In this document: piece by piece, positions 5,495 through 31,125 of the stretch
How the letters are laid out: every line of letters starts with the position of its first letter
How positions within the stretch are numbered: the first letter of the stretch is position 1
From: Bosea sp. (in: a-proteobacteria)
Lineage (GTDB): Bacteria; Pseudomonadota; Alphaproteobacteria; Rhizobiales; Beijerinckiaceae
Reading direction: 5' to 3'
DNA length: 64,000 nt
NCBI GenBank assembly: GCA_023910605.1
Contig: JAAVVV010000001.1
Coordinates: 1,912,698 to 1,976,697, forward strand
Made by a program: the position numbers and the translations under genes
Notes under the pieces: model-generated
What the model was told of the DNA's origin: nothing
Database searches by the model: none
What the model saw: the letters and a program-made list of their open reading frames with translations, nothing else

Positions 5495-6706
5495 TCACGT
5501 CTCATCTGCTGCTACGGCAAAGGGCGAGGCGAGCAGCGGGGCGGCGCAGATGCGCTCCAGCAGGTCTGCCTGCGCCGGTTCCAGTGCCACAAGGCGGCCG
5601 AGCACGTGCAGCAGGTTCATCAGGTCGGTGGTGTAGTCGTCGAGCCAGTGGTCCGGCTGGATCTTGTCGAGCGGCGAGGGTGGGCGGCGGTCGCCGATGA
5701 TCGGGCGCGTGCGGTCGCGGCGGCGATAGCTGAACCATTGGCGCAGCACGTTCTTGCCCGAAACCTCATAGTCCCAGACGCCTTGCGGCACGTTGTCGAT
5801 GTGGCCCTTGCCAATGCGCAGGCGCTTTTTTGCGGGGTCATAGTCCATGGTGTCGGGCAGCGGCTCCGGCGCGCCGGGGATCATGCCGTCCTTGGGGATG
5901 CTCGGCCCGGTGCCTTTCGCCAAGCGCGGCGGGCCGGCAGGGCGGCGGTTTTCAGGTTTTTCTGCGCCAGCATCAGCAAAGCGCTCGCCGTAGCAATGCA
6001 GCCAGACAACCTCGCGCCCGATGGCGGCAGCTTCCGCGAACAAAGCGGCATCGATGGTCAGCGGCAGGCGCAGGCCAGGCCGCACCAGGTCAGCCTGAAA
6101 GCGCGCGGTGAAAGCCGGGTGCGCCATCACCCCGGCAATATAGGCCATCACATCCTCAGGCGCGATGAGGGTGCCATAGCTGACGGAGAGATGCGCCAGC
6201 AGCTCGGGCTTGATGTTGGGAATAGTGGCGGCAGCATCGCGCCAGAGCGGGAAAACGCGGCCTCCGCGACCGTTGTAATGATGTTGGTCTGGAATGCAGT
6301 TGGACAGCGAGATGGATGGGCCTGACTGGATCGAAACATCGTCCACTGCTGTCAGGAAGACCTGATGATCCGATAGTAGCGCCCAGATTTCCGGACGTGC
6401 CCGCGTGACCAGCCGATGATCTGGCGGCAGCCATTGGCGATCAAAGCTGCGGAAGGCATAACGGATTGGCTCAACGAGGAAACGCGTATCTTCTGCAATG
6501 GTTGATTGCCGTATCGGAAATGACCCCATTTGCTTTTTGACTACCGTATTGATGCTGCGGCTGTCATCCGAATGAAACAGCGCATCCTTGCGGATAGGAT
6601 CCTTCTCGCCCCGCAACGTGTTCCAGCGATCTTCGAGCGATCTCACATCTGGCGCTATGACCCAGGTGCGATGCGTTTTCACGCCGGGGCTTGACCAAGC
6701 GAACAT
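5495..6706 (-). CDS. C-terminal part of split restriction-modification enzyme (target-recognition region)
   Basis: This open frame of 403 codons holds the C-terminal third of the enzyme whose N-terminal part ends at 6679. The join is exact: one extra base in the A4 run at 6722-6725 (T4 on the coding strand) turns the upstream frame into FTPLAEMFAWSSPGVKT, which continues straight into this frame. The ATG at 6706 is therefore probably an internal Met and not a real start. The segment FAWSSPGVKTHRTWVIAPD and the many aromatic residues after it resemble the C-terminal specificity region of type ISP-like enzymes. If the frameshift is real the enzyme is broken, unless the gene is corrected by slippage or the two parts work as subunits. 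Confidence 0.7.
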   Translation of the reverse strand: MFAWSSPGVKTHRTWVIAPDVRSLEDRWNTLRGEKDPIRKDALFHSDDSRSINTVVKKQMGSFPIRQSTIAEDTRFLVEPIRYAFRSFDRQWLPPDHRLVTRARPEIWALLSDHQVFLTAVDDVSIQSGPSISLSNCIPDQHHYNGRGGRVFPLWRDAAATIPNIKPELLAHLSVSYGTLIAPEDVMAYIAGVMAHPAFTARFQADLVRPGLRLPLTIDAALFAEAAAIGREVVWLHCYGERFADAGAEKPENRRPAGPPRLAKGTGPSIPKDGMIPGAPEPLPDTMDYDPAKKRLRIGKGHIDNVPQGVWDYEVSGKNVLRQWFSYRRRDRTRPIIGDRRPPSPLDKIQPDHWLDDYTTDLMNLLHVLGRLVALEPAQADLLERICAAPLLASPFAVAADET

Positions 6707-8805
6707 CTCCGCGAGAGGGGTAAAAGCGACCAGTCGCCTTTGCGCGCTGGCAGGAATGAGGCCGTCCAGTCCTTGTCCGCCTCGACCCAGCCGCTATCCG
6801 ACAAGGAAACATGATCAAGTGTATCGAATTTCAGCTTGCGTATGCCTTCCGGCAAAGCCCGAAAACGGACCCGCGCTGGTTTCGAGCGGTCTTTTGCGCG
6901 TTTGCGTAAGGCCAGCACGATGCAGACAGGCTGCTGAACGCCCTGAAAGATGCGCGTGGCCAATACAGGCTGGTGACCCTCAGGCGAGCAGTCCACAACC
7001 CAAATTTCGCTGCAATCGCGGCGAAGATCATCCCGCATCTTTTGAAAGCCTGGCCCGTTCAAGAAGCCGGAAGCCGTGATGAAGCAGATGATGCCTGCTC
7101 GATCTTCGTCAGGTTCCTGTGTTGCATCTGCCCAGCCGCTGCCAAAAACCTTCAATGTCGCCCAGCGCCAGAAAAAGACGTAGAGGTTTTTCAGGTGCTT
7201 CGTGTGAGCGCTCACGCCCCATTGGGTAGGAGGAACCCAGCGGTCCATGGGTGAAAGCAACTCCTTGTTGGTGTCGCTTCCCTTCTCAACCCAAGCGCCC
7301 ATGCCGCCAGCATCTACTTTGTAAGGCGGGTTGCCGATGACTACGGTGATCGGCTCGCCGCGCTTGATCTCGTTGGCCTGCCTGCGGCTTTCGCCGATGG
7401 GGGCGACCATGCCGGAAAACTGCGTCTGTGTTGCGTAAGGGTCGCCCAGCGTGTCTGTCACGAACAGGCGCAGCGTCGGCAGGTTTCGCCCATCACCCGC
7501 GCTGATGCTCATTAGCGTTTGCATTTCGGCCAGCAGGCGAAGCTGCGCCACAGCAAATGAGCCGAACTGCATCTCGAAGCCGATCAATCGCTCTGCCGAC
7601 GCTGCGATCGCGCCCGGTACAGCGCCGGGGCCAAGATCGGCCTCCACCGTCTCGGCAATGCGGCGCAAGGCGCCGAGCAGGTAAGCGCCTGTGCCCACCG
7701 CAGGGTCTGCCACCGTCACATCGCGCGAGGCAAGGCCCAGCGGGCGGCCAAACAGCGCCGGGTCACGCAAGGCCTCATCCACCAGCCGCACCATGGCGGC
7801 CACCACCTCCGGCGGGGTGTAATACGAGCCGGTGCGCTTCCTCAACGCGTTGTCGTAAACCTCAAGGAAGTCCTCATAGAAATAGAGCCAGGCATCGGGA
7901 TTGCCCTTGGTCAGCGTCGGCCAATCCACGACATCGAGCACGCGGGTGAGGGTGTCTGTCGAGGTCTTCAAGGCGCTCTGGATCAGCGGATCATCGGTGA
8001 GCAGGCGCAGCGCGGTGGCGATCAGCGAATTGGAGGTGCGCAGCTCCAGCGCCGCCTTGCCGATGCCGTCCTTGAGTTCGATGCCGCGCGCCCGCGCCAC
8101 CAGCAGCCCGAAGGTGACGGCCTGCGCGTAACCATCGGCAAACTCGGCATTGCTGGCATTCGGGAAGAGAAGCGAGCGCCACTCCGTCGCCAGCAAGGTA
8201 AGGCCGGGGTTGCCGCGCTCCAGTTCTTCGGTGACTTCATCACGCAGCAACCGGCACAGCCGCGCTGCAGTCTCGGCAAGCTGCTTGGCCGTGCGCGGCG
8301 AAATCGGGTTCCATGTCAGGAAGCTGCTGATCAACGGCAGCAATGTGGGCGGCGCACTGAGCTTGTCGCCAGATGTCTCGACATCGCCCGCCAGCGACAC
8401 CGCGCCCTGCAGGGTACCGTTCTGCCAAAGCGTAAAGTTGTTGCCGTCGGTGTATAGCAGATTGGGCAGGGACTTGAGTTTGCCCCACTGCTTCTTGTCA
8501 TGCTCATCTGAAAAGCGCTGCGGATTGGCGCCCTTGCCCGGCGCCTTGACCTCGATGTAGCCGACCAGCGCATTGCGAACCGTCACGGCATAGTCGGGCC
8601 GGGTTTTCAGGTGCGACAGCGTGCTCTCGCCCACAAGGCTGACGACGCCATCGGGCAGACCAAGCAACGCCGCCAGATCGCGGAACAGCGCCTCCATCGG
8701 CGCACGCAACTGATCCTCCGGCGCGCCGGTGGCCGCCTTGTTGGAAAGTTTGGCCTTGGTGGAGGCACCGAAGGTGGCGATGGCGGAGTTGAGCGAGTTT
8801 GACAT
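6679..8805 (-). CDS. N-terminal part of split restriction-modification enzyme: nuclease plus adenine methyltransferase
   Basis: The frame gives 708 residues. The N-terminal nuclease has D71 and E85-V-K87 in a PDY...YIEVKAPG pattern (PD-(D/E)XK). A helical coupling region follows, then an N6-adenine methyltransferase with the AdoMet motif DPAVGTG at 367-373 and the catalytic NPPY at 492-495. There is no helicase between nuclease and methyltransferase, so the layout is closer to single-chain type IIG/IIL enzymes than to the long LlaGI-type ISP enzymes, although the C-terminal region looks ISP-like. Translation runs off into a wrong frame after about residue 693 and stops at 6679; the C-terminal third lies at 5495-6706 in another frame. 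The start is the ATG at 8805, with a GTG one codon upstream. It is divergent from the helicase gene, 117 bp apart. Confidence 0.8.
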   Translation of the reverse strand: MSNSLNSAIATFGASTKAKLSNKAATGAPEDQLRAPMEALFRDLAALLGLPDGVVSLVGESTLSHLKTRPDYAVTVRNALVGYIEVKAPGKGANPQRFSDEHDKKQWGKLKSLPNLLYTDGNNFTLWQNGTLQGAVSLAGDVETSGDKLSAPPTLLPLISSFLTWNPISPRTAKQLAETAARLCRLLRDEVTEELERGNPGLTLLATEWRSLLFPNASNAEFADGYAQAVTFGLLVARARGIELKDGIGKAALELRTSNSLIATALRLLTDDPLIQSALKTSTDTLTRVLDVVDWPTLTKGNPDAWLYFYEDFLEVYDNALRKRTGSYYTPPEVVAAMVRLVDEALRDPALFGRPLGLASRDVTVADPAVGTGAYLLGALRRIAETVEADLGPGAVPGAIAASAERLIGFEMQFGSFAVAQLRLLAEMQTLMSISAGDGRNLPTLRLFVTDTLGDPYATQTQFSGMVAPIGESRRQANEIKRGEPITVVIGNPPYKVDAGGMGAWVEKGSDTNKELLSPMDRWVPPTQWGVSAHTKHLKNLYVFFWRWATLKVFGSGWADATQEPDEDRAGIICFITASGFLNGPGFQKMRDDLRRDCSEIWVVDCSPEGHQPVLATRIFQGVQQPVCIVLALRKRAKDRSKPARVRFRALPEGIRKLKFDTLDHVSLSDSGWVEADKDWTASFLPARKGDWSLLPLSRRCSLGQAPA

Positions 8806-8922
8806 CACAGTGCTTTATTGCCCGTGGTTGCGTCGATACGCAACCGGACGGGCAGCAGCGTTCAAAGCATGTATGAAATGACGCAAGTGACCGTCAGATT
8901 GCAGATTGTGGGCTAACCCGTC

Positions 8923-11900
8923 TTGAGCAAACCTGTTTCTGCATGCACTGTTCGCGAAATTTATGGTGATGTTCTGAAAAGTAAGCAGGAAATGCCGGAC
9001 CGGCCATTTTTCAATTTCTCGATTGACCAGCTTGAAAGGCTGTTCAAAACGCAAGGCGGCAACCTCACTATTATTGACCAATTGCTCGCAGAATTGGCGC
9101 ACCGTGACACGGACCGATCAAGGGCGCTGGCCGTGCGCGTTTCCAAGCAACGATCTGCGAAAATTCCGGGTGCAGATGCTGAGGCAACCGCTAGGAGCCA
9201 TGCGCGTCGTTTGGCCTTGGCGAAAGCTGTCGTGTCCAACGGGGCTGACGATTCAATTGCGAACGCGCCTGAACCGCTGCGACATCTGGTTCGCAAGCTC
9301 CACTTCGAGCAACTTGAACAAGCTTCGCGTTCGAACAAACACCCGATGCATTCCACGCCGGAAGCATCAACTGCAGTGGCGATGAGCATCGAAACAGCAA
9401 ACAGCAAACGCGGGTTAAATCTGCGTTCTGGTGAAACGCTTCCGACACCGCTGACGCTCGGAGCGCGGGTGCCATCCAGCGTACGGACGGAAGTCATTCG
9501 GATTGACACCCTTGATCGTGCCGGATTGTCTACCCTCATCAGCGATCTGAAAAGCAAAGCAGGAGCAGAATACAGAATCATGGAAGATCAGGCTGCAGAA
9601 CGTCTCGCTGAACTGCAGCGACAGCACATGGCGAACGATCCGGCCGAAAAAACACGCCTTGGCAAAATCTACGATCGGCTCCGCGAGAAGCTGCTCGACA
9701 TGCGCTTGTCCAACCCGATGCTGAGCTACAAGCATCGGGCCACATCCAAGCGCCAGTTGCAGATTGTCGACGAGGTTCCTGAAGAGGTCTATGGCGCGCT
9801 TGCGGTCGAAGGCACAGCGCTGGAGATCATGCCGCTTGCCGAACCAGAAGGCATCCCTACAGACGAGCAGACGGATGAGTTCCGCGCCGAGCTTGAACAC
9901 GCGAAGGTGTCCGATCTCGAATACCTGACCGAACTGGCGGCGCTCGAAAATGCGGGACGGGATGACGAATTTGCTCTGGCCGAGGCTGAAACCCGATTGC
10001 GCACCCGCCTTCGCGAAAGGCTGCAGATGCCGCCGCGACCAAACCGCAAGACGGTATCACCAGTCGAACACGCCAAATCACTCGGCATTGATCCGCAGAT
10101 CGAACTTCAGCCCAAGGCCGCAAAGAGCGACCACAAGGACCGCAAGCTGCAAACGCTGAAGTGGCCGGACAGCCTGTCGTCCACGCTCGACAAGGTGCAG
10201 GGTGATGCCATCTTGTCTGAGCAGGAGATGGGTCTGTCGACCCTTTTTCTGGTCTTCGGCTTTCTGGAATGGGCGGATTCCAAGGACAGCAGCAAGCGTT
10301 TGTTCGCCCCGCTCCTGCTGCTTCCGGTAAAGCTCTCTGAACGCAAGACAGGCCGGGGAAACATCGTCTTTTCGTTGGCTGCGACGTCCGAGCAAGCCGA
10401 TGGCAACATGAGCCTGGCCAAGAAGCTGGAAGCGCTGGGACTGGTGCTGCCAGTGTTCGACCCTGCCGAGGGAGCCAAAACGCCAATCGAGGACTACTTC
10501 GATGAGGTCAACGCGGTCGTGTCCGCGCTGCCAGGCTGGAAGGTACGCCGCTGGCTGACATTGGGCCATTTCGCCTTTGGGCGGTTTGCTATGTATGCCG
10601 ATCTTGATCCGGCGAAATGGCCGAATTCACCGGTCGAGAATGCACTCGTGGGTTCCGTGCTACGCGGCACTGAAATCAATGGCGACGGCGGGGCAGGTCT
10701 ATCTAGGCCACCCGACGACTACGACGTCGACAATGAGCAGATCGAGACCATCGCGCCTTATCTGGTGCGGGATGCTGACGCTTCGCAGCATTCGGCCATC
10801 ATCGATGTGATGAAAGGCAGGAACCTCGTTATTCAGGGGCCGCCCGGCACCGGCAAAAGCCAGACCATCGCCAACATCATCGCCAACGCGCTGGCTGCGG
10901 GCAAGAAGGTACTGTTTCTTGCCGAGAAGATGGCGGCGCTCAACGTCGTTAAGCGGCGCCTGGATGAAGACAAGCTCGGGCATTTCTGCCTTGAATTGCA
11001 CTCCGACAAATCGTCAGCCAAGCAGGTCATCCAAAGCCTGAAGGAGCGGCATAAGCTCGGCTACAGCGTGCCTGCCACTCGCACCACCAGCGATGTGCTG
11101 TGGCATGAAGCCCGCCGCGACATCCGGCAATATCTGGATGCCCTGCATGCTGACACAGATGTCGGTAAGCCTTTCGAGCAAATCTGGAAGGCGATACGCA
11201 CGCGATCGGACCTTGGCGAGGCCGTTGGTCAGTTCCGCAAGACGTCTTTGCCGACTGCTGCGTACACCTCGAACTCGGGTTTTGAACGAATCCGCGATCG
11301 CCTCGCGCAATATGCTGGCATGAGGGCCGAATTCGAGACGTCTTTCGGGCCAGTCAGCCAGTCTCCTTGGACCGGACTTTTCGATAGCGATGCCGTGAAT
11401 GCCGGGATCGCCTATCCGTTGCTTGATGAGCTGGCGGACATGGCAAAGCAACTCGGACGTCTGCAGGACGCTCTGAAAGCTGCCGCACCATTTGGCATGG
11501 GAACGATCCAGGAGTTGCGGGCAAGCGCTGATCTTTTGGCCTTGGCAACCCTCCCGATTCCAGACGAGGCCCTCGTCGCATTCCTGGCTGCACATGATCG
11601 CGCCTCTGTCACCGAAGTGCTTTCGGCGCTGGAGACCTTCGACAGTGCGCGACAGGCGCTTGTCATCATTGCAGGCTTCAGTCCGCAGAACGAGGGGCAG
11701 CGCCTCATCGTTCAGCGGGTGGTCCCTCAGTTATCTGAAGCCGACATGGACGAGACGCCGAGCGTGACGTTCTCGCACGCCCGGTCAGTGCTCGAACAAG
11801 CTGATGCCGTCCGAAATGCAGCCAAGGCGGCGACGCCTCATCTGTCTGCTCTGGGTTTGACCGAGGGCTTCCCGGTGGCAGGGCTGACAATGCTTTTGAT

Positions 11901-14900
11901 CCTGTCGCGCATTGTTTTGAAGGTGCCGCACGATCTGCGCCGCCTTGTCTTGCAAGCACCACCCGGAACTGCGGCCACTCTTGCGCCGGTCGAGGTCGAG
12001 TGGAAAACCCTCAATGAGGCCGAGACGACATGGCGCTCGCGGTTCACACGTGCCAGTGAACGCTGGCCGTCGGTCGATGCTCTGCTGGCCGCCGCCGCAA
12101 TCCGGGAAAAGTCTGGCATCAGCGGGTTGCTTGCAGGATTTGGAGGGGATGCGAAGACCGTTGCCGAGGTTAACGCCCTGCTCGGCATCCCTTCGACAGT
12201 GAAACTTCCTGCATCCGACTACCGCGATCTCTCTAATCACGTGCGCCGCCTGGCTTCTTTTACCACGAATGGGAGCCACCGCTTGCTGTTCGGAGATTTC
12301 TGGCGAGGGCTTGATACGCCGATCACGGCTTTCGCCGGTGCCATAACGATCCTCGAAAGCGCGCGCGGCTTGATCGATGGTGCTCTAGGCGGGCCTGATG
12401 TCCTGCGCCTCCTCGATGCATCTGGGCCGGAGTTGGCCCAACCGCTTGTCAGCGCCCAGAGCGCGCTGTCGCTGTGGGGAGAACTCCCTGACACCATTCG
12501 AAAACTTGCGGGGTCGGCGAGCTTCGAGACGTTGAACCAACACCTCGACATTACAGTGCTGTCCGCCAGGCGCATGCTGGAAAGCGGAAATGAGCAGGCA
12601 CTTGCGACCCTCACCGCCACCTGGCGGGAGCTTCATTCTGTCTTGCTGGAGGCGGATCAGCTTCGCGAGGTAGAACAGCGGCTTTCGGCAATCGGAACTC
12701 CTCAGCTTGTCGAAACCGTCAGCACGCGTCGGCCCGAAGTCCAAATGGCATTGTCTTGGCTGGCGGCTGTGCAGTCAGTAGGAGGCCTAGGCGATGCGGT
12801 TTCACGCCTTTCTGCGGTTGGTGCGAGCGCTTTTCTCGCCGGCTACGTTGAGGCTCGATCCGAAGGGTGCGCAGCATTGGCCGCTGTCGAAGGCACTCGC
12901 GCAGAACTGCAACGATCATTCGGTTTAACACCGTGGTCGATTGATCAACCCAACGAAGTTGCCGCCAGAATTGCCGATTTTCTCGGCCGCCGTGATGAAC
13001 TTCAGCAATGGCTGGCAGTCCAGCAGGCGAGGGGACAATGTGTGATGGACGGACTGGAGCCGTTCATTGAAGCGTCGAACCAGTACGGCTTGGTTTCGCA
13101 GCAACTTCCTGAATTGTTTTCTGGGTTGGTCGCCGTGCAGCGGGCAGATCAGATCCGTCGCAACGATCCGGTGTTGTCAAAGGCAACAGGTGCTGCGTTG
13201 GGCAGCTTGCGCGAGCAGTTTCGGGCCAGAGACGCGCAACGCAAGGAAGCCGACAAGAAGACGGTCTATGCAGCGGTCATCGGTAGGCAGCCCGTGTCCG
13301 GCATGAACTACGGTTCGAGGAAAACATGGACCGAAAGGGAGTTGCTTCAGCTTGAGTTTGGCAAGGAACGAACCTCTGTCCGCGTCCTGCAACTCATCAG
13401 GCAGGCCGGCCGTTCGATCCAGTCCATGAAGCCCTGCTTCATGATGTCGCCGCTCTCGTTAGCGAAATTCGTGCCTGCTGGATCGCTTGAGTTTGATTTG
13501 CTGGTCATCGACGAAGCATCGCAGATGAGGCCAGAGGACGCGCTCGGCGGTCTGCTCCGGGCAAAGCAGATCGTAGTCGTCGGCGATCCGAAACAGCTTC
13601 CGCCGACAGATTTCTTCCAGCGTTCGGGGGATGACGCCGCGACCGATGAAGACGGTGTTCCGCTGGACGATGACGACGAATCCATCCTCGAAGCCTGTCA
13701 CAAGACCTTTCGGCAGCTCCGGTTGCTAAAATGGCATTATCGTAGCCGCTGCGAAAGCTTGATAGCCTTCTCGAACAAGCACATCTATGCCCCCGAGGGT
13801 CGCCAACTGATCACCTTCCCTGCTGCCTTGCCGGGTTCATTCTCGATCGATCGCATCAGGATTGAAGGAGTTTATGAGCAAAGGCGCAATGCGCCTGAAG
13901 CCCTCCGGATCGCAGAGGATGTCATTCTCTTCATGCAGCACCATTCCGACGATCCCAAGCCACCGACCATGGGCGTCGTCGCGATGAACTCGGATCAGGC
14001 GGAGCTTATCCGCGAGCAGATCAATCTGCTCGCCCGCGGCGATGATCTCGTCGAACGCTACCGAAAAAATGTCGAAGAGCGTGGCGAAGAGTTCTTCGTA
14101 AAGAACCTCGAGAACGTCCAGGGTGATGAGCGGGACTATATTCTGATCTCGCTGACCTATGGCCCGAAGGCAGGCGAGAAACAGGTTCTGCAGCGGTTTG
14201 GCCCCATCACTGGCAAACAAGGTCACAGGCGATTGAATGTGTTGTTCACGCGAGCCCGCATTAGGATCGGCCTTTACACATCTATGGATGCTAGCAACGT
14301 CAAGCCTTCGGAGACGAGTTCGCGTGGCGTCCATATGTTGCAGCAATACTTAGCCTATGTCGAAGGAGGTGGGCGTGAAGCTGGTATCGCGACGGGAAGG
14401 GAGCCGGACAGCGACTTCGAGATTCATGTGGCTGAGCGTTTGCGGGCACGTGGTTTTGCGGTCGAGTATCAAGTTGGGGTTTCGGGCTTTCGGATTGATC
14501 TCGGCGTTTTCCATCCGGAATTGCCTGGCCAGTATCTAGCAGGCATCGAATGTGACGGTGCCCAGTACCATGAAAGCAAAAGCGCTCGTGATCGGGACCG
14601 CCTGCGTCAGGACATCCTTGAAAATCTCGGATGGTCAATCCTGCGGGTTTGGTCGACCGATTGGTTTGACAACCCTGATCGCCAAACAGAAATCCTGGTG
14701 GCGCGCCTGATTGAGCTTCAGAAAAGCGGAAGTGCGGCGACGAACCGATACACCTTCCGTACGCATTTCGAGCGGATGTCGGACGGTGTGAACGATGAGA
14801 CCCCAGTCCCTATCGACTGCATGCCCAGGGTGGAGAATGCTGAAATTCTTGAGGAAGGTCTTGAGGAAGGTGAGGTGCTTCCGCCACGCACCGATAAGAT

Positions 14901-15252
14901 TGGTGCCACAAAAACGAGCATGGCAAGCGTCGCCGAGCGCCTGACTGGTGATAGCAACCTCGGAGACTTGGAAGCTCGAGAATTGTGGCTGGCCGATCGG
15001 TTCACACCTGCCGAAGCGCGCCGGGCGCTTTCCGCGTTTCGTGAACAGGTCATCGCGTCTTCGATGGCACCATGGGAGCCGGAACGCTCGATCTTGCGTG
15101 CGAGCATGATCGAAACGTTCGTCGAACAGCGCCTTGTTGATGAAGGCGACTGGTTCGTGAAGGTCCCGCAATTCCAGCGCAGAAGCACCAACGGCGCGGA
15201 AAAGGCACGCTATCTCAGCGAGATCTGCGACATAATCGGACGCATAGTCTGA
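8923..15252 (+). CDS. Giant SF1 helicase with DUF4011 and Vsr/DUF559-type nuclease domain
   Basis: This single frame encodes 2,109 residues. DUF4011 begins near residue 245 (RLGKIYDRLREKLLDMRLSN). Walker A GPPGTGKS is at 639-646 and the DEAS box at about 1530-1533, so nearly 900 residues separate the two halves of the first RecA domain; a long insertion is typical of COG1112 helicases. The second RecA domain, with QGDERDYI and a LNVLFTRARIRI segment, runs to about 1790. A nuclease domain of the MTES_1575/DUF559 (Vsr-like) type follows, with D1859 and the E1876-CDG motif, then a DUF3320-like tail. The listed TTG start gives a 219-residue N-terminal extension that looks coding (FSIDQLERL...ELAHRD); the first strong alternative is ATG 9580. 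Such proteins recur in defence islands and probably unwind and cut invading DNA. Confidence 0.9.
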   Translation: MSKPVSACTVREIYGDVLKSKQEMPDRPFFNFSIDQLERLFKTQGGNLTIIDQLLAELAHRDTDRSRALAVRVSKQRSAKIPGADAEATARSHARRLALAKAVVSNGADDSIANAPEPLRHLVRKLHFEQLEQASRSNKHPMHSTPEASTAVAMSIETANSKRGLNLRSGETLPTPLTLGARVPSSVRTEVIRIDTLDRAGLSTLISDLKSKAGAEYRIMEDQAAERLAELQRQHMANDPAEKTRLGKIYDRLREKLLDMRLSNPMLSYKHRATSKRQLQIVDEVPEEVYGALAVEGTALEIMPLAEPEGIPTDEQTDEFRAELEHAKVSDLEYLTELAALENAGRDDEFALAEAETRLRTRLRERLQMPPRPNRKTVSPVEHAKSLGIDPQIELQPKAAKSDHKDRKLQTLKWPDSLSSTLDKVQGDAILSEQEMGLSTLFLVFGFLEWADSKDSSKRLFAPLLLLPVKLSERKTGRGNIVFSLAATSEQADGNMSLAKKLEALGLVLPVFDPAEGAKTPIEDYFDEVNAVVSALPGWKVRRWLTLGHFAFGRFAMYADLDPAKWPNSPVENALVGSVLRGTEINGDGGAGLSRPPDDYDVDNEQIETIAPYLVRDADASQHSAIIDVMKGRNLVIQGPPGTGKSQTIANIIANALAAGKKVLFLAEKMAALNVVKRRLDEDKLGHFCLELHSDKSSAKQVIQSLKERHKLGYSVPATRTTSDVLWHEARRDIRQYLDALHADTDVGKPFEQIWKAIRTRSDLGEAVGQFRKTSLPTAAYTSNSGFERIRDRLAQYAGMRAEFETSFGPVSQSPWTGLFDSDAVNAGIAYPLLDELADMAKQLGRLQDALKAAAPFGMGTIQELRASADLLALATLPIPDEALVAFLAAHDRASVTEVLSALETFDSARQALVIIAGFSPQNEGQRLIVQRVVPQLSEADMDETPSVTFSHARSVLEQADAVRNAAKAATPHLSALGLTEGFPVAGLTMLLILSRIVLKVPHDLRRLVLQAPPGTAATLAPVEVEWKTLNEAETTWRSRFTRASERWPSVDALLAAAAIREKSGISGLLAGFGGDAKTVAEVNALLGIPSTVKLPASDYRDLSNHVRRLASFTTNGSHRLLFGDFWRGLDTPITAFAGAITILESARGLIDGALGGPDVLRLLDASGPELAQPLVSAQSALSLWGELPDTIRKLAGSASFETLNQHLDITVLSARRMLESGNEQALATLTATWRELHSVLLEADQLREVEQRLSAIGTPQLVETVSTRRPEVQMALSWLAAVQSVGGLGDAVSRLSAVGASAFLAGYVEARSEGCAALAAVEGTRAELQRSFGLTPWSIDQPNEVAARIADFLGRRDELQQWLAVQQARGQCVMDGLEPFIEASNQYGLVSQQLPELFSGLVAVQRADQIRRNDPVLSKATGAALGSLREQFRARDAQRKEADKKTVYAAVIGRQPVSGMNYGSRKTWTERELLQLEFGKERTSVRVLQLIRQAGRSIQSMKPCFMMSPLSLAKFVPAGSLEFDLLVIDEASQMRPEDALGGLLRAKQIVVVGDPKQLPPTDFFQRSGDDAATDEDGVPLDDDDESILEACHKTFRQLRLLKWHYRSRCESLIAFSNKHIYAPEGRQLITFPAALPGSFSIDRIRIEGVYEQRRNAPEALRIAEDVILFMQHHSDDPKPPTMGVVAMNSDQAELIREQINLLARGDDLVERYRKNVEERGEEFFVKNLENVQGDERDYILISLTYGPKAGEKQVLQRFGPITGKQGHRRLNVLFTRARIRIGLYTSMDASNVKPSETSSRGVHMLQQYLAYVEGGGREAGIATGREPDSDFEIHVAERLRARGFAVEYQVGVSGFRIDLGVFHPELPGQYLAGIECDGAQYHESKSARDRDRLRQDILENLGWSILRVWSTDWFDNPDRQTEILVARLIELQKSGSAATNRYTFRTHFERMSDGVNDETPVPIDCMPRVENAEILEEGLEEGEVLPPRTDKIGATKTSMASVAERLTGDSNLGDLEARELWLADRFTPAEARRALSAFREQVIASSMAPWEPERSILRASMIETFVEQRLVDEGDWFVKVPQFQRRSTNGAEKARYLSEICDIIGRIV

Positions 15253-15264
15253 TCGCTTTAAGGG

Positions 15265-15778
15265 TCAGAGGCCACGTCTTATTGCGTCTAGGCTTGCTTC
15301 AATATGGCTATCCGTATTAGGCGCCTCGTCCATCAGAGCGTCATCATCAGATACTGGAGGAGGATTTGCAAGGCTCGGCCTGTACCCATCCCCGGGCCTC
15401 GGTGCGCGCTCGAATTGCAGGGTGTCATCACGCGCGTCTTGCGGATCAGCGATCATGCCGCAACCGTCGATCTGGCTGACAACTTGCAGCATGTGCTCGA
15501 TTCCCAGCGCCTCCAGAACCTGCCGTGCCTTTGGTCCCGGTGGATCTGAAACAACCGTCAGCGCACCGCCGGACCGCGCGGCGACCAGGGTCATATAGTC
15601 CTTGAAGGGGCTGTCACCATCGAGCACGAGGGCTGGCCAACGCAGCAGCTTCGCGATTTCGCTGATCACTGCTGCTATCCGTATTGTCAGCATATCGCGC
15701 ACGCGAAGCGACCAGCCGTCGAAGATGATCGCGTTGGGTCCTTCCCAGAGTTCGAGCGTGTCTTCGCTCTGGTAGAGG
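15265..15778 (-). pseudogene. STAS-like protein, 5' end removed by IS66 nest
   Basis: About 170 codons of host sequence remain. A first section (LWEGPNAIIFDGWSLRVRDM...) is followed by a segment around PALVLDGDSPFKDYMTLVAARS and then a GGALTVVSDPP...VLEALGIEHMLQVV run. The latter resembles the end of a STAS (anti-sigma-factor antagonist) fold, where a strand, a helix and LxxxGL-type helix follow each other. The tail is acidic and Pro-rich. Upstream of 15778 the frame enters IS DNA, so the N-terminus is lost. It is convergent with the helicase gene, whose stop lies 12 bp away. Remaining STAS similarity is a by-eye judgement. Confidence 0.45.
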
Positions 15779-23740: not shown

Positions 23741-25408
23741 TTAGCTGAGGGCGTTTGACCTGAAGTTCCAGGGCATGAGGGCGTCGATTTTGGATGCGGG
23801 CCATCCTTGGGCGATATGCGCGAGGGTTTGCGACAGCCAGTCGAGAGGATCGACATTGTTCATCCTGGCGGTTTGCAGAAGCGTTCCCAGTGTAGCCCAG
23901 GTCCTGCCACCGCCTTCACTTCCGGCAAAGAGGCTGTTCTTTCGCGTAATGGTTTGGGGCCTGATGGCCCGTTCGACGATGTTGGAGTCGATTTCAATGC
24001 GACCGTCGGAGAGGAACCGTTCGAGTGCTTCACGGCGGGCGAGCGCATAGCGGATTGCTTCCGCCGTCTTGGACTTGCCGGAGACCTTGCCGAGCTCCCG
24101 TTCCCAAAGATCGAAGAGGCGCGCGACGACAGGCGCAGACTTTTCCTGCCGGAGCTTCGCGCGGGTGTCTGCATTCCGGCCGCGCACGTCATCTTCGACC
24201 CTCCACAGCTCGGTCATGGCCATGACGCTGTCCGTGGCAGCCTGCGAGACGCCGCTGATGTGCAGATCGTAGAACCTGCGCCTGAGATGCGCCCAGCATC
24301 CGGCAAGCCTCATCGTTTCTGTGCTGCCGGTTTTGGCCTGGCTTTTGGCCTGGCTTTTGGCCTGGCTCTTGGCCTGGCTCTTGGCAAGGCTGCTATAGGC
24401 CACGTATCCATCGACCTGCAGGATGCCGTTGTACCCGGACAGATGACGGGCCACACATTCAGCGCCTCTGCCGTCTTCGAAGCGATAGGCCACCATTGGC
24501 GGACTGGTGCCGCCATAGGGGCGATCATCGCGCGCGTAGGCCCATAACCAGGCCTTGGTTGCTTTCCCCGATCCGGGAGCCAGAGTGGGCAAGCTCGTTT
24601 CGTCGGCAAAGATCCGCTCACCCTCCTTGATCTTTTCGAGGATGTAATCGGCCAGTATCTGCAGTTCAAACCCAAGATGGCCCATCCATTGGGCCATCAG
24701 GGATCGGCTGATCTCGACCCCGTCGCGCAGGTAGATCGCCTCCTGACGGTAAAGCGGAAGACCGTCGGCATATTTGGAGACCGCGATAAAGGCGAGCAGC
24801 CGTTCCGTTGGCAATCCGGCTTCGATGATGTGTGCCGGTGCGAGCGCCTGGATCACGCCGTCATGGCCACGGAAGGCATATTTGGGACGGCGCGTCACGA
24901 TGACCCTGAACTTCGGCGGAATGACATCGAGCCGTTCGGAACGGTCTTCGCTGATCAGCACCTTCTCCAGGCCCTCATATCCAGCGGGGAGTTCCGGCTC
25001 GATGACCTCCTCGATGCGCTCAAGATGCGCAGCAAAGCCTTTGCGCGGGCGTGGAGCGCGTTTCGGCTTGTCCCTGGCGCCCCGGTCGAGTTCGCTCTGG
25101 ACGCTCGAAAGGCCGGTCTCCACCTCCTCGAAGGCAAAGGCAATCTGCTCGTCGTCGAGGACCCCAGGACCACCGGCGCGGAGCCGTTCAGAGCGCTTGC
25201 CATGTTGCGCGCGCTGCAAGACCTTCATGATCAGCGTCAGGTTGGCAATCCGCTCGTTGGCGCTCTGTTCGATCGCCTCCAGCCGGGCGATTTCAGCCTC
25301 CGCGGCTCTTAATCGAACATCCCCTTGCGCCTGCGCACGCGCCAGGGCGAGCACCATCGCCTTGAGCGCATCCACGTCGTCCGGCAAGGTGTTCAGGGGT
25401 AAATCCAT
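23741..25408 (-). CDS. tnpC: IS66 family transposase TnpC (element B3)
   Basis: This is the intact 555-residue IS66 transposase. It has a coiled coil near the N-terminus (about 10-60), an acidic linker, the catalytic core with FADETSLPTL and LQVDGYVAY motifs, and the SNIVERAIRPQTI C-terminal motif. It carries four SQAK units in a short repeat, against three in the broken B1 copy. Confidence 0.96.
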   Translation of the reverse strand: MDLPLNTLPDDVDALKAMVLALARAQAQGDVRLRAAEAEIARLEAIEQSANERIANLTLIMKVLQRAQHGKRSERLRAGGPGVLDDEQIAFAFEEVETGLSSVQSELDRGARDKPKRAPRPRKGFAAHLERIEEVIEPELPAGYEGLEKVLISEDRSERLDVIPPKFRVIVTRRPKYAFRGHDGVIQALAPAHIIEAGLPTERLLAFIAVSKYADGLPLYRQEAIYLRDGVEISRSLMAQWMGHLGFELQILADYILEKIKEGERIFADETSLPTLAPGSGKATKAWLWAYARDDRPYGGTSPPMVAYRFEDGRGAECVARHLSGYNGILQVDGYVAYSSLAKSQAKSQAKSQAKSQAKTGSTETMRLAGCWAHLRRRFYDLHISGVSQAATDSVMAMTELWRVEDDVRGRNADTRAKLRQEKSAPVVARLFDLWERELGKVSGKSKTAEAIRYALARREALERFLSDGRIEIDSNIVERAIRPQTITRKNSLFAGSEGGGRTWATLGTLLQTARMNNVDPLDWLSQTLAHIAQGWPASKIDALMPWNFRSNALS

Positions 25409-25484
25409 GGGTGCAAATAGAGCACAAAACCGCTCACTTTCCCAATGATTACAGCAGCATGATTCATCTTGCCGCAGATCGACA

Positions 25485-25829
25485 TCATCCCGTCAGCAAG
25501 GGTCGCCGCACCTTTGTCGGACGGATCTTCTTCCAGTCCATCCCGGCCAGAAGAGCCATCAGCTGCGAATGGTCCAGGCGAATGCGAGCCGCCGATAGGG
25601 CAGGCCAGCAAAAGCCTTGCTCCTCAAGCGTCTTCGAATAGAGACAAACGCCGCTGCCATCCCACCACACGATCCGAACACGGTCCGCACGTTTCGACCG
25701 AAACACGTAAAGCGCGCCGTTGAACGGGTCGAGGCCGCCATCCCGGACAAGCACCATCAGGGATGCGGCACCTTTACGAAAGTCGACGGGCTGGCACGAC
25801 ACGTAAACGACGACACCCAGGCCAATCAT
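25485..25829 (-). CDS. tnpB: IS66 TnpB (element B3)
   Basis: The 114-residue Orf2 product has the same translation as in B1. It lies between tnpA, which it overlaps by four bases, and tnpC. Confidence 0.95.
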   Translation of the reverse strand: MIGLGVVVYVSCQPVDFRKGAASLMVLVRDGGLDPFNGALYVFRSKRADRVRIVWWDGSGVCLYSKTLEEQGFCWPALSAARIRLDHSQLMALLAGMDWKKIRPTKVRRPLLTG

Positions 25830-26209
25830 GCTTTGCGCACCGCCCTCAGTATCACGGTCAGATGATCCGCATCGATGTCGCCGCCAACGCGGACAACCGT
25901 ATCCCGAATGACAATCTCCACAGCCCAGTTGCCAGCCGCCTCGACGCGCGCAAACTTCACCTCATCGTGCGCAACGGGCATGGCTTTGACCGCCCCGGAT
26001 GCCCGGGCCTGTCGCCGCCATCCATAAAGCTGCGAAGGGTCAACCCCGGCAGAACGCGCAATCGCCGAAACATTCGCACCAGGCAACAGCGTCTGGGAAA
26101 TCAGTCGTGCCTTCTCGTCGACCGACCAATCACGTAGCCTGCGCCTCGTCCGCACCGGCGCTGCCGTCAAAACCTCAAAAACTCGATCTTGATTCATACT
26201 CTCGCTCAT
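25826..26209 (-). CDS. tnpA: IS66 TnpA, HTH protein (element B3)
   Basis: This 127-residue HTH protein is the same as in B1. The ATG at 26209 is chosen over the in-frame GTG at 26230. Confidence 0.9.
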   Translation of the reverse strand: MSESMNQDRVFEVLTAAPVRTRRRLRDWSVDEKARLISQTLLPGANVSAIARSAGVDPSQLYGWRRQARASGAVKAMPVAHDEVKFARVEAAGNWAVEIVIRDTVVRVGGDIDADHLTVILRAVRKA

Positions 26210-26815
26210 AGGATTCCCCACATGATTCACCGGGAAAATGAGCGATCAGAACACCAAAAGATACGTGGGGTTGCCTACACGCTTACGATTGAAAAGCAGG
26301 TCAAGGCTGGCGCGAAATCCATCACCATCGTCGGGCACAGCATGGGTGGGTTGGTGAGCCGGCTTTTGCTGGAATCCGGCGTGTTCAGCAATGAGCCTTG
26401 GTTCAAGAAAATCATCAGTTTCATCGCACTTGCTACACCGCATTTGGGGGCCCCCCTAGCCTTGGCGCGCATTCTCGGCATGGATAGCGCACTCGGCATC
26501 AGCAAGTCGGACTTCAAGATTTTTGCCAATAATCCAAAGTACCCAACTGCCTATCAGCTTCTTCCAGCCCCAGGCGAGGCGGCATGTTGGGATATCTCAG
26601 TCAGGAGCCTCCCCGCTCTCGATATTTACGACAGCAAGGTGGCCGCTCGCCTAGGACTAAATACCTCGTTACTCAAGCGGGCGCGCTACGTCCACGATAC
26701 TCTGGGCAAGAATAGCGCACCCGGAAACGTAAGGTATTTTTTCTTTGCCGGGACTGGCCATGGAACGGTCACTCGGGTCAACGTCGGCATTGGCGCAAAC
26801 GTGCTTACAAGCTCA

Positions 26816-27746
26816 GAGCCCGATTTAAAAGGAGTTGAGCGATATCAGTAGTTTGTGATTCCCGTTTGGTGCTGAATCAAATGGGGTTTCCGATGACCTG
26901 GACTGCTATCGCTCGTGCTGAGCATAACCGTGATCGTTTGCGGTTTCCAAGTGATTTGACCGACCGGGAATGGGCACTGATCGCGCCGATGGTTCCCGCC
27001 GCCAAGCGCGGCGGTCGGCCCAGAACCACTGACATGCGCGATGTGGTGGAAGCGATCCTGTTTATTGCTTCGAGCGGATGCCAATGGCGCATGCTGCCGG
27101 GTGATTTCCCACCTGTCTCGACCGTGCGCGGCTATTTCTATCGTTGGCGGGACAGTGGCCTTCTGGAAACCATGAACCAGCTTCTGGTGATGGCCGCACG
27201 CGAGATCGAGGGTAAGCAGGCTCAGCCCACCGCCGGCATCATCGACAGCCAGAGCGTCAAAACCACCGAAAGTGGCGGGATTTCGGGGTATGATGCAGGA
27301 AAGAAAATCAAAGGCCGCAAGCGCCATATCATCACCGACACGCTCGGCTTCCTGATCTTCGTGCTGGTCCACGGTGCCAACATTCAGGATCGTGATGGTG
27401 CTCCTGACCTGCTCAAGGCGATCCGCTTCCGCTGTCCGTGGCTGCGTCATATCTTTGCTGATGGCGGCTATGCGGGGGACAAATTGAAGGATGCCATGTG
27501 CGGCCATGGCCGCTGGACAGTCGAAATCGTCAAACGGTCCGATGCCGCAAAGGGCTTCGTCGTCCTGCCCCGCCGATGGGTGGTCGAGCGAACATTCGCA
27601 TGGCTCAATCGATGCCGCCGTCTTGCCAAGGATTGGGAGAAATCCATCGCAAGCTCCACAGCCTTCGCCCATATCGCCAGCATCCGCATGCTCACCAGAC
27701 GCATCGCAAGACACTCAATCTGCACGTGAACTTTTGAATCGGGCTC
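26816..27746 (+). mobile_element. IS5-family element inserted in the lipase gene
   Basis: The element is 931 bp with imperfect ends GAGCCCGATTTAAAAG (left) and GAGCCCGATTCAAAAG (right, read inward). The 3-bp duplication TCA is at 26813-26815 and 27747-27749, in keeping with TNA-targeting IS5 subgroups. It contains one transposase gene. Confidence 0.93.
26893..27729 (+). CDS. IS5 family transposase
   Basis: The 278-residue transposase has the family start (LTDREWALIAPMVPAAKRGG), the first catalytic Asp in AGIIDSQSVKTT, the second in FADGGYAG, and the Glu in VVERTFAWLNRCRRL. The ATG at 26893 (MTWTAIA) matches the usual family start; the frame is open nine codons further upstream within the element. 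It is intact and may be active. Confidence 0.93.
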   Translation: MTWTAIARAEHNRDRLRFPSDLTDREWALIAPMVPAAKRGGRPRTTDMRDVVEAILFIASSGCQWRMLPGDFPPVSTVRGYFYRWRDSGLLETMNQLLVMAAREIEGKQAQPTAGIIDSQSVKTTESGGISGYDAGKKIKGRKRHIITDTLGFLIFVLVHGANIQDRDGAPDLLKAIRFRCPWLRHIFADGGYAGDKLKDAMCGHGRWTVEIVKRSDAAKGFVVLPRRWVVERTFAWLNRCRRLAKDWEKSIASSTAFAHIASIRMLTRRIARHSICT

Positions 27747-28235
27747 TCAGAGGATGCCGGAGATGGTACAGTCCCTCTGTGGAGCGCCTTGCCGCGCTCG
27801 CTCCAAAAGCAGCTAGTGGTAGGCGAGCATTCCGGGTTCTTCGTCGGCGATGCGTTTAGCGCAGTCTTCTATCGGCTGCTTGGCGCCGATTTTCCTGAGC
27901 CACCCATCGCACTTGATGGCGCGAGTAGCGTAGCTCTATCGATGAAGCAGTTGTTGCTGCCGAAAGAGGAGGCTCCGGAAGTTGTTCTGATACCAGACAT
28001 GCCGACCAACAAAATTACCGGACAGCTGTTCCTTGAGCGGACAGAAAAGCCGGAAGCGCCTTTTGTCGCGTTCGGGGAAGCTGTTCCGGTCAGTTACAAT
28101 GGACCGGATATTGCGCTACTCAAATTCGTACTGCCACCTCTCAACGAGACCGGACAATACCGGGTAACGTTCAAAGGTGAACCCGGTGCTTCAGAACCTG
28201 TGTTTTTCGCTGTCTGGGCCTGAAAGGGGAACGCG

Positions 28236-29966
28236 ATGCCGGCAAAACGTTCCGTCGACCCGAGCATCGTCCTCCTGCCCTATCTATCGGCGGATCTCGG
28301 GACCCAGATGGGCCGAGACGAGGATGGCCCGCTGATCGAAACCCTACGCTTCCATGCCGATGAGCCGCTGCTCGACGGTCCTGTGAGCCGACGCGTCGCG
28401 ATTATCGATTTTGACCCGGAGACTGGACAAGTGCTGCCTGGCGTCAGGTTTTCGTCGAAAGGCGGCGCACGCGGTCAGCACACTTATGCGATCGCTGAGC
28501 CCCGAAATCCCGAAAGACGGGATTTCATGCAAGTAAGCGTTTTTGCGACCATCCTGTCGACGATGGCTCAGTTCGAAACCGCTGATGTCCTCGGGCGCAA
28601 GCTTCGCTGGGCGTTCGAGGGGGAGCAGCTTCTCGTTGTCCCACGCGCCGGGAAAATGGCGAATGCCTACTATCACCGCGCCTCACGCAGCCTCCAGTTT
28701 TTCTTCTTTGACGCAGACATTAACGGCACGACAAAGACGATCCATACATGCTTGTCACCAGATATCATTGCACACGAAACGAGCCATGCGATTCTCGACG
28801 GAATTGCTCCTGATCTTTACAACTCGGTTTCGCCCCAGTCCCTGGCGCTCCACGAAGCCGTCGCTGACCTTTCCGCAGTGATCTTCTCGCTTCGCTCGCG
28901 CGAACTAGCGACGGGGCAGCTCAAAATGGCAAATGGCATCCTTTCGAAGGCCGTGGGGTTTTCCGCCATTGCCGAGCAGTTCGGGCATGCGCAATCGGGC
29001 GAGCATGATCATCCGCTTCGCGATCTTGACAATGATCACGTGCTGCCGGGCGGCACCGGAACGGTGATCCTTCGAGCCGAACCGCATGCATTGAGCACAG
29101 TCCTCTCCGGAGCGCTGTACAGTCTCCTTGTAGCAATCTTTGACCGGAGTCTCATTGATTTGGGGGATGCGGAAGAGCCTATGCCGGGTGGGGAGGTGCC
29201 GAGCCAGTTCTCGCAATCCGGCAAAGCGCTTTTTATAGCGCGGGAGAAATTCAAGCGCATCATCTTCCGGGGTCTGGACTATCTGCCTCCCGGTGAAATC
29301 AGCTTTGCGGATTACGGACGAGCAATGATTGCTGCAGATGCATCTTCAAACCCGGACAGTCCAGAATTTCGTGAGATCCTGAGGTCCGAATTTGTCCGCC
29401 GCGGAATCGTTCAAACCAGGGATGAGCTGGAGGCGCAGATGCCCGCCTTTGCCTTGCCGGAGGACATTGATCTTGATCAACTCGTTCGGTCCAACTGGGC
29501 GGCGTACCAATTCGCTGATCGTTTTCGCGGCGCATTGATGGTGCCGCCGGACATTGCCATTGATGTTCCATCACGGCTCGACGTCACTAAGTCGACGTAT
29601 CGTTCTGATGCAGAAGGCAAGCCGCATCGCGTCGAATTCCGCGAATGTATCTTCAAGGTGTCGTGGCGACGGACGCAAATCCTGAAAAGACGGAGCGGGC
29701 TGGTTGAAGAACTCAGCATCATTTACGGAAGCACGTTGGTAATCGACTGGGCAACGCGGGAGATCAAGGCATTCTTGACCACGAGTCCGGACCACGCGCT
29801 TCAAAAGACGGGTGCCGCCAATACAAACCGAGATATGCGCGAGAGTTACCTCGCTATCTGCCTTTCCGAGGGAATGGTCCAAATCGGTAGCCCAGAGGCC
29901 GAACTTACAGGTGGCACCTTGCGCCTGCGCGGTCTTGGTCAGTTCTTGCACATGTCCGGGCACTAA
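28236..29966 (+). CDS. Gluzincin-type zinc metallopeptidase
   Basis: The 576-residue protein has H180-E-x-x-H184 within DIIAHETSHAILDG and E207-x-x-x-D211 within LHEAVADLSA, giving the two zinc His and the third Glu ligand of gluzincins (thermolysin/M4-like layout). There is no signal peptide or membrane segment, so it probably works in the cytoplasm, unlike secreted thermolysins. The C-terminal 200 residues (from about 380) look like a separate domain with a FRECIFKVSWRR strand set and no obvious match. It begins 13 bp after the lipase stop and ends one base before the MBL gene, strongly suggesting a joint function. I infer an effector or processing protease in a defence-type cassette; the substrate is unknown. 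Confidence 0.8.
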   Translation: MPAKRSVDPSIVLLPYLSADLGTQMGRDEDGPLIETLRFHADEPLLDGPVSRRVAIIDFDPETGQVLPGVRFSSKGGARGQHTYAIAEPRNPERRDFMQVSVFATILSTMAQFETADVLGRKLRWAFEGEQLLVVPRAGKMANAYYHRASRSLQFFFFDADINGTTKTIHTCLSPDIIAHETSHAILDGIAPDLYNSVSPQSLALHEAVADLSAVIFSLRSRELATGQLKMANGILSKAVGFSAIAEQFGHAQSGEHDHPLRDLDNDHVLPGGTGTVILRAEPHALSTVLSGALYSLLVAIFDRSLIDLGDAEEPMPGGEVPSQFSQSGKALFIAREKFKRIIFRGLDYLPPGEISFADYGRAMIAADASSNPDSPEFREILRSEFVRRGIVQTRDELEAQMPAFALPEDIDLDQLVRSNWAAYQFADRFRGALMVPPDIAIDVPSRLDVTKSTYRSDAEGKPHRVEFRECIFKVSWRRTQILKRRSGLVEELSIIYGSTLVIDWATREIKAFLTTSPDHALQKTGAANTNRDMRESYLAICLSEGMVQIGSPEAELTGGTLRLRGLGQFLHMSGH

Positions 29967-29967
29967 C

Positions 29968-31125
29968 ATGAGCAACCTTAATGTCCGAGTCTACAATGTC
30001 CTCTTCGGCGACGCCGTCCTGCTCAGCGTGCCAGATATTGATGCCACCGGCCAACCAATTGTCCTGAAGGTGCTCATCGATTGCGGCAATGCGCTCGCCG
30101 GCAAGGCTGGGGATGATGCTGTGTTCAAGCCGGTGTTAACCGATATCGCGAGCGAACTCGGCGGCAAGCCACTAGATCTCTACATTATGACACACGAGCA
30201 CATGGACCATGTGCAGGGCATGCTCTACGGCGCGCAAAAGCTTGGCATCAATATCAACGCCAGGCAGGTCTGGATGACCGCCTCCTCGGCACCCGATTAT
30301 TACGACGCTTTCCCTAAGGCGCGTGAACAACGCAAACTCGCTCTCTCTGTGCTCGATGAGACCGAACGCTTTCTTGCCGCCAGCCCCGGCGGGGGAGCAG
30401 GCGAACTCGAGGCGCTGATGGGCATCAACAATCCACGCGCCAGCGCCGATTGTATCGACTGTATTCGAGCTATGGCGCCGGGCGATCCGCTCTATGTCCA
30501 TCGCGAGGCAAATATCGCGGGGAGGCACCCTTTCCGAAAAACCAGCATTCGCGTCCTTGCACCGGAACAGGACACCTCGGTCTATTACGGCCGGCTTGGG
30601 CCACGCACACTTGGAATGATGGTCGACACCAGTGATCCCTTCGCTGGCGGCAACACTATGCCGCAACCGCCGGCTGGTGTTTCTGCTGGGCATTTCTACG
30701 ATCTCGTCAAATTCCGTTCGAGTGGCCTGCGCGATAACCTCCTGCAGATCGACAAGGCTGCGAATAATACAAGTCTCGTGCTTGAGTTCGAATGGAATGG
30801 CTGGAGACTACTATTCCCGGGGGATGCTGAAGAAAAAAGCTGGGCGATAATGGAACGACTAGATCTGCTTTCGTCGGCACATTTTCTCAAGGTCAGCCAT
30901 CATGGCAGCCACAACGGAACGCCGCCTGAAGTTACAGACAAAGTACTACCGGAGGCAGCGCCGGATGAAAAGCCGCGCATCGTTGTGGTTTCGACAGCGG
31001 TTGGTGCCTATAAAGGCGTGCCTGACGATGAGACGCTCAACACGCTGGCTCAGCGCGCAACGTTGCACGACACGCGCAATATCGCACCAGGCAAATGGTT
31101 CGATTTTGTATTTGAACCGAACTGA
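29968..31125 (+). CDS. ComEC-like metallo-beta-lactamase-fold hydrolase
   Basis: The 385-residue protein has the H76-x-H78-x-D80-H81 metal motif in MTHEHMDHVQG. Further ligands are a late FPGDAEE Asp and the KVSHHGSHNG His, the arrangement seen in the MBL domain of ComEC/Rec2 and related standalone phosphodiesterases. The family usually cleaves phosphodiesters or nucleotides. There is no signal peptide or membrane segment. It starts one base after the metallopeptidase stop and is the last gene of the cassette. An IS66 relic begins 25 bp after its stop. It might cut nucleic acid or degrade a signalling nucleotide; the sequence alone does not decide. Confidence 0.85.
   Translation: MSNLNVRVYNVLFGDAVLLSVPDIDATGQPIVLKVLIDCGNALAGKAGDDAVFKPVLTDIASELGGKPLDLYIMTHEHMDHVQGMLYGAQKLGININARQVWMTASSAPDYYDAFPKAREQRKLALSVLDETERFLAASPGGGAGELEALMGINNPRASADCIDCIRAMAPGDPLYVHREANIAGRHPFRKTSIRVLAPEQDTSVYYGRLGPRTLGMMVDTSDPFAGGNTMPQPPAGVSAGHFYDLVKFRSSGLRDNLLQIDKAANNTSLVLEFEWNGWRLLFPGDAEEKSWAIMERLDLLSSAHFLKVSHHGSHNGTPPEVTDKVLPEAAPDEKPRIVVVSTAVGAYKGVPDDETLNTLAQRATLHDTRNIAPGKWFDFVFEPN

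Follow-up and report, generated by a model that had tools for sequence, protein, structure and literature searches.

A conserved peptidase and ComEC-like hydrolase gene pair with an exchangeable lipase, possible remains of an anti-phage module in Bosea sp.

What could join a lipase, a zinc peptidase and a ComEC-like MBL-fold hydrolase whose genes lie end to end on one strand of a Bosea sp. genome of 3.76 Mb? The window, as we call the whole stretch of 64,000 nucleotides that was analysed, holds these three + strand coding units (the lipase pieces, the peptidase and the MBL) between an IS66 nest and a gene of the glycerol-phosphate-oxidase type. A preliminary description had taken the coding stretches at 26287..31125 for a cassette of three effectors inside a defence island. 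All three are found there, with the lipase homology starting at about 26285, and we give about even chances to the reading that they survive from a conserved module, likely an anti-phage suicide system, whose peptidase would activate an MBL nuclease. The features that the argument needs are the following.

3930..4943, − strand: PDC-S11 candidate defence gene (PADLOC 4.2e-110)
5495..8808, − strand: type IIG restriction-modification gene in two frames (PADLOC REase_MTase_IIG, 7.2e-248 and 5.9e-133)
8923..15252, + strand: DUF4011/AAA/MTES_1575 helicase-nuclease (Pfam)
23741..26230, − strand: IS66-type transposase genes abutting the truncated 5′ side of the lipase (Pfam DDE_Tnp_IS66, TnpB_IS66, HTH_Tnp_1)
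26285..26851, + strand: N-terminal piece of the lipase, an LCAT-type alpha/beta-hydrolase with GHSMGG (Pfam LCAT 1.5e-9)
26816..27746 (about), + strand: IS5/IS4-type insertion element within the lipase gene (Pfam DDE_Tnp_1, DUF4096)
26866-27729, + strand: IS5/IS4-type transposase (Pfam DDE_Tnp_1, DUF4096)
27789..28223, + strand: remainder of the split lipase gene, C-terminal (46% identical to L009 lipase residues 294-432)
28236..29966, + strand: zinc peptidase without leader, a gluzincin with a predicted thermolysin/fungalysin fold, intact, 576 residues (HETSH, E207)
29968..31125, + strand: ComEC-like MBL-fold hydrolase with a long middle insert, intact, 385 residues (matches to the ComEC domain and to PADLOC LmuA)
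33.3 kb: FAD-dependent gene of the glycerol-phosphate-oxidase type (Pfam DAO, DAO_C)

At least two lesions make the lipase of the window a pseudogene, N-terminal loss and a split by an insertion element. Its homology begins at about 26285, which corresponds to residue 103 of the intact lipase of locus L009 (435 residues), and on this 5′ side it abuts an IS66-type element, so that about 102 N-terminal residues are gone. What is left of this piece matches residues 103-280 of the L009 lipase at 66% identity and stops near 26815 at the IS5-type element, whose ends, as read from the sequence, form a 10-base inverted repeat with TCA on either side and whose transposase has 98% identical copies elsewhere in the same genome. 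With the lipase lost, no more than the peptidase-MBL part could still function here. The gap of one base between peptidase and MBL was correctly given before and recurs at exactly that length in L009, L032, L095 and L096, and the gap between lipase piece and peptidase is 12 bases instead of the 13 first reported. The term defence island holds in a broad sense, since PDC-S11, the split type IIG enzyme and the DUF4011/MTES_1575 gene sit at 3.9-15.3 kb, beyond the IS66 nest, which spans about 15.8-26.2 kb.

The peptidase carries HETSH at residues 180-184 together with E207, and HExxH with its downstream Glu is kept in 100/100 of the peptidases compared. Its fold is predicted as M36/M4, in a comparison (VIA-align rows) that barely covers the stretch past residue 401. 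Pfam and PADLOC v2 held no match at E 1, and NCBIfam gave one match at chance level (0.13). The three proteins had been described as lacking signal peptides, and a crude hydropathy test for export signals (Kyte-Doolittle, 19 residues, threshold 1.6 or more) agrees for the two intact ones: 0/100 peptidases and 0/83 MBLs begin with a hydrophobic stretch, counting the first 60 residues.

The MBL of the window shows the motifs HEHMDH, GDA and HHGS, the first of which is kept as HxHxDH in 80 of 83 MBLs. Its closest solved relative is the ComEC domain 9ic4 (E 3.2e-12 by fold and 1.4e-9 by sequence), the sole solved match of the sequence search at E 0.01, and its best matches in PADLOC and NCBIfam are the LmuA model (5e-17) and the Avs1a model, respectively. 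From HxHxDH to the next motif block there are 184 residues compared to about 75 in ComEC, and the length is 179-320 in all 66 MBLs of the 83 where it is measurable. This insert lies roughly where gated MBL nucleases have theirs. Confidence of the predicted model is low within the insert at 211-260 (block means 32-70) and dips at 131-160 (66-77); it dips outside the insert as well, at 41-50 and 311-320. The least confident loop, 213-230, holds no residue conserved in 85% of 15 aligned MBLs, and only the PP-x-GV right after it is conserved among them, therefore no cut site is apparent.

Are the three genes neighbours elsewhere? The best 80 of 478 matches to a 22-row peptidase alignment gave 78 loci, which were joined by loci from genome searches, viral contigs and plasmids to a total of 101 (L078 and L104 being one record). 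In 84 of these the first gene downstream of the peptidase on the same strand is the MBL, and the 17 loci without it comprise four viral contigs, six truncated where the contig or the stretch ends and seven real absences (L028, L037, L038, L039, L061, L064 and L079). A further separate set of 12 loci, where L146 is the same place as L088, has the MBL in 11. Distances among peptidases and among MBLs correlate at r 0.893 over 79 loci, a value from which shared descent is not removed, and 2000 permutations reached at most 0.084. Hosts of the pair include members of the Pseudomonadota, Myxococcota, Chloroflexota, Acidobacteriota and Bacteroidota and a planctomycete, and it was also seen in two archaeal metagenome-assembled genomes (L027 and L043), which may be misbinned. 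The nearest named relatives of the window peptidase are alphaproteobacterial. The family is rare and patchy: at E 1e-20 the class yielded 4 of 385 genomes, the set of relatives 8 of 101 and the phylum 7 of 398, own genome included each time. On plasmids, relatives were found in 110 of 72,556, and 51 of the 110 are typed as conjugative. An origin on phages was considered and rejected, as 50,697 phage records gave two weak matches and IMG/VR gave four weak loci, none of which (0/4) has an adjoining MBL.

The three-gene cassette of the preliminary description thus stands as far as the pair is concerned, which is the near-invariant core, and does not stand for the lipase, which is optional. Within 3.5 kb of the peptidase, 35 of the 101 loci encode a lipase from one of four families, namely LCAT in 5, patatin in 22, DUF2235/Tle1-like in 7 (L078 and L104, the single record, both counted) and phospholipase D-like in 1, as judged from Pfam matches of examples and from annotation; the remaining 66 loci have no nearby lipase of these families. 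It is mostly directly upstream on the same strand and at some loci divergent or downstream. Along a quick peptidase tree under a simple model, the lipase type changes at least six times among the lipase-bearing rows. All LCAT loci fall in a single clade of seven rows together with the window and L023 (SH-aLRT 97). The L023 contig begins inside the peptidase, hence it has no upstream DNA for a lipase, and the clade members that do have such DNA carry an LCAT lipase directly before the peptidase in 5/5 cases, with gaps of 2-23 bases.

Restriction or CBASS genes had been suggested as neighbours of intact loci, and indeed CBASS, Hachiman, Septu or restriction genes lie near several of the loci. 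We inspected 16 plasmid loci with annotation, picked non-randomly from the match list by rank and diversity, and 12 have a named defence gene in their flanks when ThiF and CHAT genes are counted; L101, L102 and L109 have none by name, and neither does L097, where a closer look revealed Septu. In L099, L100 and L111 a CBASS cyclase stands no further than about 5 kb away, Septu PtuA/PtuB genes are found close to L032, L097 and L136, and in L111 the MBL is followed by a PtuA-like pair. HamA and HamB stand right after the MBL in L100 and L105 (PADLOC 7.5e-146 and 0 in L100; HamB of L105 also identified), and a search of the 101 loci with the L100 proteins at 1e-15 returned these two loci only. L098 has by annotation a DUF1837 gene that does not adjoin the pair.

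For eight of these plasmids, flanking stretches of 17-21 kb each near the module were compared with 40 kb read half a plasmid away, using our own list of defence names, which was drawn up once the near loci were known but before the controls were read. Named defence genes make up 12 of 103 flanking genes against 2 of 236 control genes, these two being ThiF and Shedu (Fisher p 2e-5, on gene counts that are not independent because several plasmids are related), and by stretch they occur near the module in 7/8 against 2/8 controls (p 0.02). Two groups of modules, L099 with L104 and L100 with L105 and L111, are closely related in the tree or share a record; a SAV_2336 gene, lone helicases, PD-(D/E)XK and toxin-antitoxin genes were excluded on both sides. 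On the chromosomal side, a second sample, of 12 loci, shows a weak enrichment of defence models near the module, with PADLOC at 1e-25 assigning 36 models among 101 near genes against 6 among 110 control genes. Among the 25 of the 36 near matches that were listed are Septu models, ATPase_I-A, IetA and a type IV restriction enzyme, and the control models bear four names (PD-Lambda-3_B, MkoA, MkoC and WYL).

Since the pair recurs, about a third of the loci have a lipase nearby and anti-phage systems stand repeatedly close by, the module is likely one of phage defence. By analogy with HamM, Avs1a and CanC, we infer a course in which infection would activate the peptidase, which, having a predicted thermolysin fold, may then cut inserts that block the ComEC-like MBL and thereby release a nuclease that degrades DNA. 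An intact lipase would damage the membrane of its own cell; the peptidase might target it as well as the MBL, or it might act alongside. What points to this course is read from sequence: the pairing across phyla, the exchange of the lipase, the catalytic motifs, the absence of evident export signals, the MBL insert and the defence neighbours. That the module is a prokaryotic immune module of a new kind, in bacteria and in archaeal draft genomes, where one thermolysin-fold protease arms both a gated MBL pro-nuclease against DNA and a pro-lipase against the membrane, be it of LCAT, patatin, Tle1 or phospholipase D type, is a tentative extension that we rather doubt. Our literature search found no activity reported for any member.

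The earlier view that all three proteins are effectors is, by analogy with the systems in the accessible part of PMC12799240, less probable than a scheme in which a single protease activates one or two effectors. Its fullest form would have lipase, peptidase and MBL strike different cell components in parallel after a sensor, the peptidase activating neither of the others, and it would fit three kinds of hydrolase that lack evident export signals and sometimes lie near defence genes, as well as the extra hydrolases added at some loci. We consider it unlikely, for the pair stays near-invariant while the lipase comes, goes and changes family, which indicates a special link between peptidase and MBL, and the MBL has long inserts like those of protease-gated nucleases. 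Some loci, on the other hand, sit in long arrays of hydrolases, with subtilases, a phage-type lysozyme/amidase and an S1/P1 nuclease or polysaccharide lyase; part of these enzymes have hydrophobic N-termini of the export type, and the module is present in myxobacteria (L012-L014). All this would suit a digestive kit for scavenging or predation, directed against other cells or debris, yet such a kit is hard to reconcile with peptidases and MBLs that lack the N-terminal hydrophobic stretch throughout, nor would it account for the CBASS, Hachiman and Septu genes that recur nearby, and we rate it as quite improbable.

The third alternative concerns lipids. Among solved folds, the phosphorylcholine esterase Pce (1wra, 2bib) ranks second as a match to the MBL, and the MBL might accordingly act in a Pce-like manner on lipid head groups, side by side with the lipase and with the peptidase regulating both. 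The lipases of four families near the pair would agree with such a lipid-directed module; however, by fold ComEC matches better, by sequence no other solved structure matches at E 0.01, and about two thirds of the loci (66/101) do without such a lipase, which leaves this option with very little probability.

If activation of the MBL by the peptidase is the preferred reading, how does the module relate to known systems? The preliminary description had recognised no named system in the triad, and no PADLOC v2 or NCBIfam entry describing the set was found. The idea of pairing a protease with an MBL is already published for trypsins and caspases (PMC12799240, as far as its accessible text goes), the only close paper recognised in our search. 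It describes pairs of trypsin and MBL pro-nuclease in Hachiman (HamM), AVAST type 1 (Avs1a/Avs1b), Lamassu and DRT, of which the gated nuclease HamM is cut at residues 118 and 218, and also the Canu loci CanABC with a caspase and a gated MBL nuclease. The present module resembles the trypsin pairs in having a protease gene beside a ComEC-like MBL gene, defence genes near, long MBL inserts in roughly the same part and LmuA and Avs1a as best models. It differs in its stand-alone thermolysin-fold zinc protease, where the accessible text of PMC12799240 has trypsin fused to HamA, Avs or LmuA, in the MBL gene lying downstream instead of upstream, and in a lipase that often joins and the lack of a conserved sensor gene among the genes found. 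With Canu it shares, as that text presents it, a stand-alone protease gene, a gated MBL nuclease gene downstream (predicted here) and a setting in defence islands; Canu has a caspase and CanB where we find a zinc peptidase, and the accessible text mentions no lipase for it. A trypsin- or caspase-like protease marks the class of gated MBLs, whereas the fold here is predicted as M36/M4, with HExxH...E in every peptidase. Other marks of that class are two disordered inserts over the MBL active site, a conserved residue for cutting in each of them, and DNase activity once cleaved.

Membership of AVAST type 1 was rejected, the MBL scoring 41.7 bits against an Avs1a cut-off of 420, and so was that of Hachiman on gene content, with HamA/HamB at only L100 and L105 among 101 loci. 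In Lamassu, LmuB (SMC-type) and LmuC accompany the LmuA effector; the gene names around the 16 plasmid loci include no SMC protein, but many genes there lack names. CBASS can use a patatin-type phospholipase, CapV, as membrane effector, and a patatin-type phospholipase is likewise present at some of our loci, but PADLOC at 1e-5 has no family for the L100 patatin or the L099 Tle1-like enzyme (for the window lipase piece it gives weak matches only, best 0.0054), and a cyclase lies near some loci only. The peptidase shares the predicted fold and the HExxH...E zinc motif with M36 fungalysin and M4 thermolysin. Unlike secreted M4/M36 enzymes it has no evident signal peptide and no Pfam match, and unlike M4 the window peptidase runs about 175 residues beyond the M4-matching part.

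Taken by analogy, the module is likely a further variant of the protease-opened MBL pro-nuclease, with a thermolysin-fold protease and an exchangeable lipase. The accessible part of PMC12799240 also refers to further MBL nucleases beside proteases of other families, which its text does not name, and proposes that other proteolytically activated enzymes may act in antiviral immunity; its fig. S2, on other protease families, may already list this clade. In the literature outside bioRxiv and most subscription papers, the titles and abstract openings listed describe no gluzincin-MBL or lipase-gluzincin-MBL set, which is no proof of absence. If our reading is true, a zinc gluzincin would be a concrete further protease class for MBL gating, with a lipase added; proteolytic ignition of DNA and membrane killing would then be testable from named intact loci, such as L009 of Pseudochelatococcus lubricantis and L096 of Rhizobium phaseoli R630.

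Where, then, would infection be sensed? The sensor had been placed upstream of the lipase, in DNA lost to the IS66 nest. We sought a common gene before the lipase at the five loci with an intact LCAT-type lipase and found none shared: a second MBL stands there in L010 and L032, in L009 an unassigned reading frame, beyond which lies a hydantoinase gene, in L095 a divergent plasmid gene of the TOPRIM type and in L096 a protein with a hydrophobic N-terminus. A conserved upstream sensor was therefore rejected, and the idea of a lost one is unsupported. The sensor may instead be the C-terminal part of the peptidase itself. At L101, L110 and L138-L141 a related N-terminal part precedes the peptidase in one fused protein, and the records of L101 and L110 annotate that part as an S8 subtilase.

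In the loci L101, L110 and L138-L141, all with relatives of the gluzincin peptidase, a subtilase-like part is fused to the N-terminus of the peptidase, giving proteins of about 1200-1330 residues, and the MBL gene still lies downstream of this fusion. The fusion is possibly a two-protease cascade. In L096 of Rhizobium phaseoli R630, the stretch 12180-15363 covers a separate subtilase gene and, after it, a gene with a ComEC-type MBL-like start that holds the motifs GDC, GDA and HHG and lacks HxHxDH; the two genes possibly represent a further protease-MBL pair within the same plasmid array.

A second MBL, which differs from that of the module and carries the motif HWHYDH, is located immediately upstream of the LCAT-type lipase in two loci, and S1/P1 nuclease genes adjoin the module or lie near it:

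L010 7355-8656, second MBL
L032 5084-6430, second MBL
L032 10756-11790, S1/P1 nuclease
L095 10921-11787, S1/P1 nuclease
L098 6970-7779, S1/P1 nuclease

In L032 at least, the nuclease has a signal-peptide-like N-terminus. Matrixin-like peptidase genes, assigned to this family by eye from the sequence rather than by a profile, adjoin the peptidase-MBL pair in L018, L019, L024 and L029.

The viral contigs L091-L094 encode remote peptidase relatives, none adjoined by an MBL. The neighbourhood of the module in the window includes:

5495-8808 (-), Type IIG restriction-modification gene, broken into two frames
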